From the NCBI RefSeq assembly GCF_001425445.1, contig NZ_LMQU01000009.1, positions 17,817 to 81,816 of the forward strand: a stretch of 64,000 bases of DNA, written 5' to 3'. Both the position numbers and the translations under genes were made by a program. Position 1 is the stretch's first letter. Every line of letters begins with the position of its first letter. Below the pieces are notes generated by a model. It saw only the letters and a program-made list of their open reading frames with translations, was not told the origin of the DNA and made no database searches. Shown one piece after another: positions 51,877 to 54,938 of the stretch. This stretch comes from Devosia sp. Leaf420 (GTDB lineage: Bacteria; Pseudomonadota; Alphaproteobacteria; Rhizobiales; Devosiaceae).

Positions 51877-52024
51877 GGTGCTTTCCGGCAAAGAGTGAAC
51901 AGGCACAAGAACTAGGTCTCCGGCTGCACTTTCGCAACCACCTGCGACATTGACGTCAAAGCGAGGGAATGCGACACCGCATGCCTTGCCTGTTTTCTCG
52001 TATTTTCCGAAAGGCCGCCAGCCC

Positions 52025-53668
52025 GTGTCGTCCGCTGCTTTGCCCGAACTTGACCCCTCCTTCTTTGAGCCTGCGCAGACCGCTCGCGCCTGGCCGTTTG
52101 AAGAAGCGCGCAAGATCGTCAAACGGCTCGAAAAGTCGGGCAAGGGCGAAGCCTTGTTTGAAACCGGCTATGGTCCTTCGGGCCTGCCTCATATCGGCAC
52201 GTTCGGCGAAGTGGCGCGCACCACGATGGTGCGTACGGCCTTTCGCCTGTTGACGCGCGACCAGATTCCGACGCGGCTCCTGTGCTTTTCCGACGATCTC
52301 GACGGCATGCGCAAGATCCCGGACACTGTCCCTTCCAAGGAAGCGATGGAGCCGCATCTGCAAAAGCCGTTGACCTCGGTGCCGGACCCGTGGACCAACG
52401 AATATGAAAGCTTTGGCCACCACAACAACGCCATGCTGCGCCGCTTCCTCGACACCTTTGGGTTCGATTACGAATTTGCGAGCGCGACCGACTATTATCG
52501 GTCCGGCCAGTTCGACCCCGTATTGCGCCTCGCGGCCGAGCGCTATCAGGCGATCATGGATGTGATGCTGCCGACCCTCGGCGCCGAGCGTCAGGCCACC
52601 TATTCGCCATTCCTGCCGATCTCGCCGATTTCGGGCCGCGTGCTTTACGTGCCGATGAAGGAAGTGAACGCCAAGGACGGCACCGTGACCTTCGCGGACG
52701 AAGACGGCCGCGACACCACGGTTCCGGTCACAGGCGGCCACGTCAAGCTGCAGTGGAAGCCTGACTTCGGCATGCGCTGGGCCGCGCTCGGCGTCGACTT
52801 TGAAATGTTCGGCAAGGATCACCAGACAAATCAGCATATCTACGACAAGATCTGCGCGATCCTCGGCGGCACTCCGCCCGAGCACTATGTTTACGAGCTC
52901 TTCCTCGATGCTGAAGGACAAAAAATCTCGAAATCGAAGGGCAATGGCCTGACGATCGACGAATGGCTGACCTATGCGCCGACGGAGAGCCTTGGGCTCT
53001 ACATGTTCCAGAAGCCGCGCGTCGCCAAGCGTCTGCATTTCGATGTCATCCCGCGCGCGGTCGACGAATATTTCGCCCATGTCGCCTCTTATGAGAAGCA
53101 GGAAGCGGCAGCACGGCTCGAAAACCCGGCCTTCCATGTCCACTACGGCAATGTGCCCAAGGTCGACATGCCGATCACTTTCGCGCTGCTGCTTAACCTC
53201 GCAACGGCGTCGAACCCGGAAACGCCCGAAGTCATGTGGGGCTATATTTCGGCCTATGCGCCGGGGATTTCGGCCAAGACCCATCCGCATCTCGATGCGC
53301 TGGTCGGCTACGCCATGCGCTACTTCCGCGATTTCGTGAAAAAGACCTATCGGGCACCGGACGATGTCGAACGGGCCGCGCTCGAAGGGCTTTCCGCTGC
53401 GTTCGCAGCGCTGCCCGCCGATGCCGATAACGAAACGATCCAGAATGCGGCGCTCGATGTCGCGCGCAATATCGAGCGCTATCAGGATCACACCAAGAAG
53501 GGTCCGACCGGCGGCCCCGGCGTTTCCGGCGAGTTCTTCCAGATGCTCTATCAGGTGCTGATCGGGCAGGAACGCGGCCCGCGCTTCGGCTCGTTTGCGG
53601 CGCTCTACGGGATCGAAAATACGCGAAAGCTGATCGACAAAGCGCTGGCCGGCGAGCTGCTGAACTAG
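52025..53668 (+). CDS. lysS: Class I lysyl-tRNA synthetase
   Basis: 547 residues with a GTG start after GAAAGG. The Rossmann domain has HIGH-type P55HIG58 and the KMSKS loop K300ISKS304, so this is the archaeal-type class I enzyme and not class II LysS; that form is usual in Alphaproteobacteria. [16 protein letters not shown] and the C-terminal helical domain are family-typical. It charges tRNA-Lys. Upstream in-frame starts would add residues without family character. Confidence 0.94.
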
Positions 53669-53733: not shown

Positions 53734-54210
53734 CTACCCCAAAACTTTCCTGAAAAACACCACGCGCTGCGTTTCGGCAAAGCCCAGCGCGGCATGCATC
53801 GCAAGGCTTGCTGCATTCTCGGGCGCTGCATCTGAAGCAAATTCAGTGCAGCCTTGGGCGCGGCTCCAGCCTTCGACGGCGGCAATAAGCGCACGCGCCA
53901 CGCCTTTGCCGCGCGCCTCCGGCACAACGAAAATCCCTTCGAGAAACGCTACCGGCGAAGTCTTGCAGCCGTTGACGTAGTCGCGCCGCAGCGCGGCCTC
54001 GGCAAAACCGAGCGCCGCGCCATCCGCACCTCGTGCGATCAGGTTGATCGTCTCGCCGGGATCTTTGAGCAGTTCAGCAATCTCGGCCGCGTGTTCACCA
54101 TTGCCACCACTGGGCCAAAGCGCCGTGCGCATGGATGTCCAATCGCAGGCGTCACTCGGGACGGCGGGAGCGATCGTTACTGGCTGGCCCAGATGATCCG
54201 CGCGATCCAT
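53734..54210 (-). CDS. GNAT acetyltransferase closely resembling aminoglycoside 6'-N-acetyltransferases AAC(6')-I
   Basis: 158 residues. DYVNGCKTSPVAFLEGIFV (78-96) with PEARGKGVARALI, CTEFASDAAPEN (121-132), SLAMHAALGF and RVVFFRKVLG reproduce block by block the layout of AAC(6')-Ic/Ig-type enzymes, which acetylate the 6'-amino group of aminoglycosides with acetyl-CoA. The N-terminal LWPSGGNGEHAAEIAELL also matches. The true substrate in this organism is unknown. The start follows AAGGA and overlaps the S24-regulator gene by 34 bp, so both are one operon. Confidence 0.82.
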   Translation of the reverse strand: MDRADHLGQPVTIAPAVPSDACDWTSMRTALWPSGGNGEHAAEIAELLKDPGETINLIARGADGAALGFAEAALRRDYVNGCKTSPVAFLEGIFVVPEARGKGVARALIAAVEGWSRAQGCTEFASDAAPENAASLAMHAALGFAETQRVVFFRKVLG

Positions 54211-54812
54211 TCGATATCCTTCATGTTCAGTATCCGCGGATCATAGGCGGGATTCAGCGAATGAAGTTCAATCTGGTTGGCCGTCTGGCGATAGAGGATT
54301 TTGGCCATGACCTCACCCTCGCGCGTCTTGACGACGACGCGATCGCCGCGCCGCACCTGTTCGGTGGGCGAAACCACGACCCGGTCCCCCTCGCGATAAA
54401 GCGGCTCCATGCTATCGCCCTGGATTTCGAGCGCATAAATGCCGGGATCGCCCGGCGTGGGCAGGCTGACCTCGTCCCAACCCTGTCCGGCTGGAAAACC
54501 TGCGCTATCGAAAAAGCCGCCGGCCCCCGCTTGGGCCAGACCGAGCAGCGGCACCGTGCGGTAGCGGGGGGCATCCATATGCAGAAACGTGCCGCCCGCG
54601 AGAAACGAATCCATCGTCTCTCCCGTCGCTTCGAGCACTTTGGCGATGCTTTCCGTCGACGGCCAACGCTCCCGCCCGTCCTTGCTCACGCGCTTCGAGA
54701 CATTGAATGCCGTGGCGTCGAGCCCCGCCAATTTGGCGAGCGCCGACACCGATAGGCCATTTCTTTGCGCCACAGCGTCGATACCGTCCCAGAGGGCCCG
54801 ATGTGAAAGCAT
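54177..54812 (-). CDS. XRE-like helix-turn-helix regulator with S24 (LexA/CI-type) peptidase domain
   Basis: 211 residues. An HTH (about 10-65: GLSVSALAKLAGLDATAFN) is joined to an S24 domain (about 85-205). Ser134 in GDSMEP and Lys171 in EVMAKIL form the catalytic dyad, and Ala-Gly bonds at 95-98 could be the self-cleavage site. Such repressors are inactivated by RecA filaments or act without cleavage. No phage genes are present, so this looks like a resident regulator. It precedes and overlaps the acetyltransferase. Confidence 0.85.
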   Translation of the reverse strand: MLSHRALWDGIDAVAQRNGLSVSALAKLAGLDATAFNVSKRVSKDGRERWPSTESIAKVLEATGETMDSFLAGGTFLHMDAPRYRTVPLLGLAQAGAGGFFDSAGFPAGQGWDEVSLPTPGDPGIYALEIQGDSMEPLYREGDRVVVSPTEQVRRGDRVVVKTREGEVMAKILYRQTANQIELHSLNPAYDPRILNMKDIEWIARIIWASQ

Positions 54813-54852
54813 GTCACAGCCGTAAAAAGGAGTTCGATTATAGACAAGGAAA

Positions 54853-54862
54853 TTAGTCCTAA
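54853..54862. promoter_or_regulatory. Short dyad TTAGTCCTAA upstream of the S24 regulator
   Basis: TTAG-TC-CTAA lies 40 bp before the regulator start codon. It is placed well for an autoregulatory operator but is short and occurs once, so support is weak. It does not match the alphaproteobacterial LexA box GTTC-N7-GTTC. Confidence 0.3.
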
Positions 54863-54938
54863 ACTAGCCCTCTCAACTGGCCCTGTAAAGAGCCGATGCG
54901 CGCTTGCCGATCCGCTGCGCCTTGTCTAGTTTCGCGCC

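Follow-up and report, generated by a model that had tools for sequence, protein, structure and literature searches.

In Caulobacter crescentus, the GTA genes are activated by gafYZ, and gafYZ are repressed by RogA (CCNA_00080), an HTH-S24 protein of 213 amino acids (PMC9632790). According to the parts of that account used here, the RogA sites are two inverted repeats of the form GGAA-N4-TTCC, the ChIP peaks of the protein lie at gafYZ and CCNA_02002 and not at rogA itself, and RogA reportedly lacks the cleavage residues of the LexA/CI type and yet represses. In the Hyphomicrobiales, the gafA form consists of a DnaA-like gene and a GafA-like gene beside mucR (PMC9638019); the portion of that account of GafA/GafYZ drawn on here connects them with neither a RogA operator nor a resistance gene. 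The same order includes a chromosomal aminoglycoside acetyltransferase, AAC(6')-Iaq of Brucella intermedia, which gives aminoglycoside resistance by its published description (PMC11932996), so that a chromosomal AAC(6') of the Hyphomicrobiales can be a resistance gene. One of three Devosia type strains in a published table is given as kanamycin resistant (PMC5644702). In the literature covered on Devosia, DUF6456 and RogA/GTA, which took in few subscription journals, no link between an aminoglycoside gene and rogA was found.

The window analyzed here is a stretch of 64,000 nucleotides from Devosia sp. Leaf420. On its minus strand, a gene for an S24 regulator (54177..54812) is followed by an acetyltransferase gene (53734..54210), and an earlier note on this DNA had read the pair as an AAC(6')-I-like enzyme in an operon with a self-cleaving-type repressor, possibly an ancestral resistance gene under stress control. 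We consider it likely that the AAC(6')-I-type gene, referred to below as aac, is the second gene of an autoregulated rogA operon, that RogA also controls gafYZ and the GTA, and that aac is translationally coupled to rogA. The enzyme alone would be one more environmental AAC(6'). The surprise is its setting: in most genomes of the genus, a resistance-type gene would be transcribed as one unit with the master repressor of a GTA.

The reading frame of the putative aminoglycoside 6'-N-acetyltransferase, which begins with the ATG at 54210, is open over 158 amino acids and contains the motifs quoted in the earlier note. The product, a member of the GNAT group, scores 171.7 bits against the NCBIfam equivalog for AAC(6') group E (NF043067; cut-off 140), and among the best 25 of 32 families no other AAC(6') model reaches its own cut-off. 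It aligns with the solved proteins AAC(6')-Iy, -Ih and -Ig (E values 7e-40 to 1e-33). The predicted model has a mean pLDDT of 90, falling below 50 in residues 1–6, and matches the same three structures with Z scores of 22.0–22.7, rmsd values of 1.5–2.0 and 44–48% identity; in nine of the best ten Foldseek rows the query-normalised TM score is 0.84–0.87. The next structural family is the polyamine acetyltransferase DpA (Z 18.5; 16–17% identity). In AAC(6')-Iy, Asp115 is the proposed general base and Glu79 is an active-site residue, according to the part of the source used here (PMC4964394). By alignment, Glu91 and Asp127 of the Devosia protein correspond to Glu79 and Asp115, and all 31 aligned homologues have both residues. 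The likeness to AAC(6')-Iy, -Ih and -Ig thus extends over fold, P-loop region, the E79/D115 equivalents and length, whereas the window protein differs by 10 additional N-terminal residues encoded within rogA and by its place in the operon of a GTA repressor, and its activity is predicted only. AAC(6')-Iaq, compared here by its published description, is likewise a chromosomal AAC(6') of the Hyphomicrobiales but has a different genetic context.

The closest relatives of the protein are Devosia proteins with 63–81% identity (nine loci, L031–L039). For phylogenetic analysis, 21 non-Devosia and five Devosia loci were taken from 46 homologue loci; L032, L037 and L038 were treated as duplicates of G023, G013 and G002, and L033 was omitted together with the remaining weaker or redundant loci. 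In the resulting 61-row tree, which is midpoint rooted, has weak deep forks and consists of AAC rows throughout, with no non-AAC outgroup, the window protein groups with other Devosia proteins in a set of 14 (95/89). The reference AAC(6') proteins are spread over several other parts of the tree, and the window protein lies inside their spread. The phylogeny with known AAC(6') families that the earlier note had proposed as a check therefore places the protein among the AAC(6'), and together with the NF043067 score, the structural matches and the Glu91/Asp127 pair it supports the assignment of the gene as AAC(6')-I-type, the acetylation itself being predicted. The description as an ancestral resistance gene holds in part. 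The gene is chromosomal and spread through the genus, but its neighbours in the tree are AAC(6') proteins and environmental homologues, and it does not stand basal to any clinical gene there. The pN/pS ratio is 0.22–0.26 in each of six pairings between the window gene and a relative from Devosia, and on these ratios aac is under purifying selection and appears to be a maintained gene. The GC content of aac (0.63) is close to that of the S24 gene (0.62) and of the window (0.61), so base composition gives no sign of recent arrival, although the GC3 of aac (0.66) is below that of three neighbouring genes (0.74–0.77).

The regulator gene has an open reading frame of 211 amino acids, and its product scores 91.4 bits against Peptidase_S24 (PF00717; cut-off 23.3). 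The N-terminus has no Pfam HTH match; helices are predicted at residues 4–17 and 22–28 in a poor model (pLDDT 61). Ser134 and Lys171 align with the dyad of E. coli LexA, and Ala95-Gly96 presumably sits at the position of the LexA cleavage site. All 49 aligned proteins (36 from Devosia and 13 from other families of the order; the count excludes the frameshifted rogA of G006 and those of G040, G045 and G057) have the Ala-Gly pair, the Ser and the Lys. The alignment and this conservation bear out the earlier description of an S24 regulator of the self-cleaving type with an intact Ser/Lys dyad, as far as the sequence can indicate. A class-wide sample was drawn from 61 other genomes with an S24 match, in which 51 loci were examined, the rest being partial or weak, and L225 was not counted. 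All four residues are kept in 30 of the 50 usable homologues, while 20 depart, a pattern that suggests repeated loss of self-cleavage. The RogA-like homologues missing one to four of the residues are L219, L236, L237, L239–L253, L256 and L257; single changes are seen in L219 (Lys to Gln) and L245 (Ser to Cys).

The regulator shares with LexA the S24 domain, the Ser/Lys dyad and the Ala-Gly pair, but it scores 36.4 bits against the LexA equivalog (cut-off 110.95). The alphaproteobacterial LexA box is GTTC-N7-GTTC. When a LexA-like box was sought with at most one mismatch in the 150 bp ahead of rogA, 35 of 36 Devosia promoters had none, including that of the window. Control of rogA-aac by LexA within the SOS system was rejected on these two results, and the proposal that the gene is under stress control is not supported in that form. 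If there is a damage response, RogA itself would have to mediate it, and induction by DNA damage or stress through RogA self-cleavage is possible.

A RogA-type operator, AGGACTAATTTCCT, was identified by sequence conservation in the rogA promoter (54847..54860, minus strand). It is abutted by TAGTTT (54861..54866, minus strand), a putative -10 element with a weak match to the consensus, and TTTACA (54884..54889, minus strand), at a spacing of 17 bp from the -10, is the putative -35 element for rogA-aac. In the genus, 35 of the 37 genomes have TTTACA no more than 120 bp from rogA. The stretch common to the Devosia rogA upstream regions is AGGA-N6-TCC(T), and a second such site follows 18–21 bp further in 31 of 37; the rogA promoter of the window has one of the two tandem operators when at most one mismatch is allowed. 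At the same stringency, all Devosia genomes but G017 and G029 (35 of 37) have an operator no more than 120 bp from rogA, compared with a mean of 1.6 and a maximum of 6 in 200 shuffles. The operator pattern was derived from Devosia sequences before comparison with the published RogA sites. Based on the position of the sites, the rogA operon is probably autoregulated, and RogA would act as repressor of its own promoter.

In the window genome, the exact pattern TAGGANWWWWNTCCT occurs only at the rogA promoter and ahead of gafYZ, with one match for the reversed control. Across 41 Devosia genomes there are 46 match rows in 32 genomes, a count in which palindromes score on both strands, against 14 for the reversed control; 37 rows lie at rogA or gafY, four (G061–G064) are outside the rogA/gafY tally, and nine of the 41 genomes have no exact match. 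Five rows lie elsewhere (G016:C1:3588181, G028:C1:30742, G030:C163:4047 and G017:C107:3088), and these isolated matches in individual genomes, away from the two promoters, may be due to chance. With one mismatch, the single-site pattern gives three match rows in the window genome, at the same two places, and the reversed control gives six. Since the control outnumbers the matches, the counts say little by themselves, and the argument was based on conservation. A larger RogA regulon was considered and rejected, as a 34-base two-site pattern had no matches in the window genome and one in the reversed control. Of 24 AAC homologues that lie apart from rogA, one (L047) has a relaxed form of the operator in the 400 bp upstream, which we attribute to chance.

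The second place at which the window genome matches TAGGANWWWWNTCCT is ahead of a gene whose product has a DnaA C-terminal domain; a Ros/MucR gene stands before that gene and a DUF6456 gene behind it. These are the same DnaA-like and GafA-like genes beside mucR that the account of the Rhodobacter and Hyphomicrobiales GafA/GafYZ describes (PMC9638019). AGGA-N6-TCCT precedes gafY without mismatch in 36 of 37 Devosia genomes and with one mismatch in G029. Among genomes from other families of the order, 11 of the 14 with an S24 match have a gafY site when a single mismatch is tolerated, and none of the five without an S24 match has one (Fisher p 0.005). Many gafY promoters have AGGAA-N4-TTCCT, with the same symmetry as the Caulobacter GGAA-N4-TTCC. 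At C9:466-478.5 kb, starting some 23 kb past gafYZ and reaching to about 35 kb, the window genome carries GTA genes for a portal, prohead protease, capsid, connector, head completion protein, tail tube, NlpC peptidase and the 'megatron' protein, the last of which scores 1433 bits (cut-off 800).

Taking together the operator conservation, the link to gafYZ, the GTA genes and the literature on Caulobacter RogA, the most fitting identity for the S24 gene is rogA, which encodes the GTA repressor, and the product would bind and repress at these sites. This probable orthology to the Caulobacter protein was judged on domain make-up, operator and gafYZ linkage. As far as the Caulobacter protein is described (PMC9632790), the two are alike in the S24-like region, which a putative HTH would precede in Devosia too, in length (213 and 211 amino acids) and in sites of the GGAA-N4-TTCC type at gafYZ, with gafYZ and a GTA cluster likewise found in Devosia. 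They differ in that Devosia RogA has all cleavage residues intact where those of the Caulobacter protein are reportedly missing, in that the Devosia sites include the promoter of rogA itself where the Caulobacter peaks are confined to gafYZ and CCNA_02002, and in the aac gene apparently coupled behind rogA.

The two genes of the window overlap by 34 bp (54177..54210, minus strand), as the earlier note had stated, but this overlap is not the junction of the genus. In 19 of 22 adjacent Devosia pairs, the TGA stop of rogA lies within ATGA or GTGA, with the RTG in the aac frame, giving an overlap of 4 bp. Where the genes are not adjacent, rogA ends in TGA in only two of 15 Devosia genomes and in TAA or TAG in 13 (Fisher p 2e-5). 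The conserved architecture is an overlap of the kind associated with translational coupling, and coupling would be the expected consequence. In the window, the rogA stop is TAA, which abolishes the start at -4, and the upstream ATG at -34 stays. This start lies in GA(A/G)TGG, which encodes a conserved Glu-Trp of the regulator and occurs with or without an aac gene, and the first 10 residues of the window AAC are an extension encoded by rogA codons. AAGGA (54217..54221, minus strand) stands ahead of the ATG at 54210 and may serve as a Shine-Dalgarno element. AGGGA is found at this position in the near kin G023, G014, L031, L033, L034 and L035, and the Shine-Dalgarno-like words that were sought are present in three of 34 other Devosia genomes (G013, G020 and G022). 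L033 likewise is without RTGA and has ATAA instead. In G027 and G029 (L104, L107), which have no aac, other reading frames begin at the -34 position inside rogA, and in G027 the rogA stop is still ATGA, followed by an ORF of 123 amino acids. Downstream, a convergent gene on the plus strand (51950..53668), which we take to encode a class I lysyl-tRNA synthetase, has a like ORF downstream of rogA in several Devosia genomes without aac.

The S24 gene is present in all 37 Devosia genomes, although it is split by a frameshift in G006. In the search for AAC orthologues, which covered 36 genomes of the genus besides that of the window, the gene was found within 100 bp behind rogA in 22 of the 37, at about 0.5 kb in one (G009) and unlinked in one (G026), and it is absent from 13. 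At the AAC-like loci outside Devosia, no S24 match was found within the stretch examined in any of 35 (L040–L074). When the presence of aac is placed on the rogA tree (built, like the S24 alignment, without the frameshifted G006), it is scattered, requiring 14 changes compared with a mean of 13.9 after shuffling. As aac is missing from 13 of 37 genomes in this scattered manner, RogA does not need it to function. G022 and G016, which branch off earliest among the Devosia rows of the rogA tree, have an adjacent aac; on the AAC tree, in which the deep forks are weak, G016, G022 and G026 fall outside the main Devosia set of 26. The shared junction and the adjacency in G022 and G016 favour an early gain followed by repeated loss, although the AAC tree does not unite all Devosia rows. 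GTA_TIM was found in 30 of 37 Devosia genomes, and six of the seven without it carry aac, which may be a trend.

In the proposed mechanism, dimers of RogA, with a putative HTH and an S24 region, would bind AGGA-N6-TCCT palindromes at the rogA promoter and at that of gafYZ. Binding would keep the GTA genes silent and hold the rogA transcript at a set level. From this mRNA, aac would be translated by coupling, usually across the 4-bp stop/start overlap and in the window from the start 34 nt inside rogA. We infer that the output of AAC would then track the synthesis of RogA, being basal in normal growth and higher when RogA is inactivated, an event that would also free gafYZ and the GTA. In this sense the coupled aac could be a natural reporter of RogA status.

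Several other explanations of the locus were weighed. RogA might be a damage-sensing repressor in which cleavage activated by RecA turns on the GTA and AAC(6') together. The residues expected of such a protein are invariant in the 49 aligned homologues, and their retention in 30 of 50 class-wide suggests selection in those lineages, but the other 20 depart from them and 35 of 36 promoters have no LexA-like box. For many S24 repressors, a response to damage is not known. With Caulobacter RogA described as repressing without cleavage residues (PMC9632790), we regard the damage-sensing explanation as possible but not probable. Another doubt concerns the substrate, as the enzyme might acetylate a polyamine, a cell-wall amine or a protein amine in normal physiology and provide little or no protection from aminoglycosides. 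Purifying selection on a chromosomal gene of a soil genus would fit such a role, as would the position of DpA as the next structural family, and roles of mycobacterial AACs beyond resistance have been addressed in the literature (PMC6363676). However, those AAC(6')-Iy active-site residues that were compared have been retained, and the gap of about 3.5 Z units, together with the difference in identity (44–48% versus 16–17%), favours AAC(6') over DpA; we therefore hold a purely physiological role to be doubtful.

It is also conceivable, if on balance unlikely, that aac stands behind rogA by chance as a passive passenger that borrows a transcript, the regulation having no meaning for resistance. 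Its scattered distribution with absence from 13 of 37 genomes, its displaced or unlinked position in G009 and G026, and the homologues of other genera that stand without rogA are all in keeping with chance placement. The RTGA junction in 19 of 22 adjacent pairs argues against it, with TAA or TAG taking the place of that stop in 13 of 15 non-adjacent cases. An operon in which a GNAT gene overlaps the gene of a repressor also resembles a toxin-antitoxin pair, with the HTH protein as antitoxin. This explanation is very improbable, given that rogA occurs without the GNAT gene in 13 of 37 Devosia genomes and in other families, that the GNAT gene occurs apart from rogA in G026 and in other genera, and that the GNAT protein is of the AAC(6') type while its HTH partner has another known role. 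Our preferred explanation remains the autoregulated rogA operon with aac as its coupled second gene.

Devosia RogA keeps the whole LexA/CI cleavage site that is reportedly missing from the Caulobacter protein (PMC9632790), and a RogA that looks catalytically intact in an order rich in GTAs offers a direct cleavage test of what turns GTAs on. We offer as speculation, and consider rather improbable, that RogA of the Hyphomicrobiales is an active self-cleaving switch, that a single cleavage event (e.g., after DNA damage or antibiotic stress) both releases GTAs and raises AAC in Devosia, and that the Caulobacter lineage has lost the switch. If this were true, resistance and gene transfer would be driven by a single phage-like repressor.

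Two further observations concern the rogA and gafY loci. In G006, rogA (G006:C2:594492-595129; L123) is broken in two by a frameshift close to residue 84, on the N-terminal side of the Ala-Gly pair; the promoter sites and aac are intact, GTA_TIM was not found in this genome, and the frameshift could be either a natural loss or a sequencing error. A binding motif for GafY could not be predicted in the Caulobacter work, according to the part of it used here (PMC9632790). In 35 of 37 Devosia genomes, TTATCC(C/A)C lies 30–34 bp ahead of the RogA-type site of gafY (L128, ~1468-1477; G000:C9 442248), and this element, which resembles a DnaA box, may be a binding element of the DnaA-like GafY.
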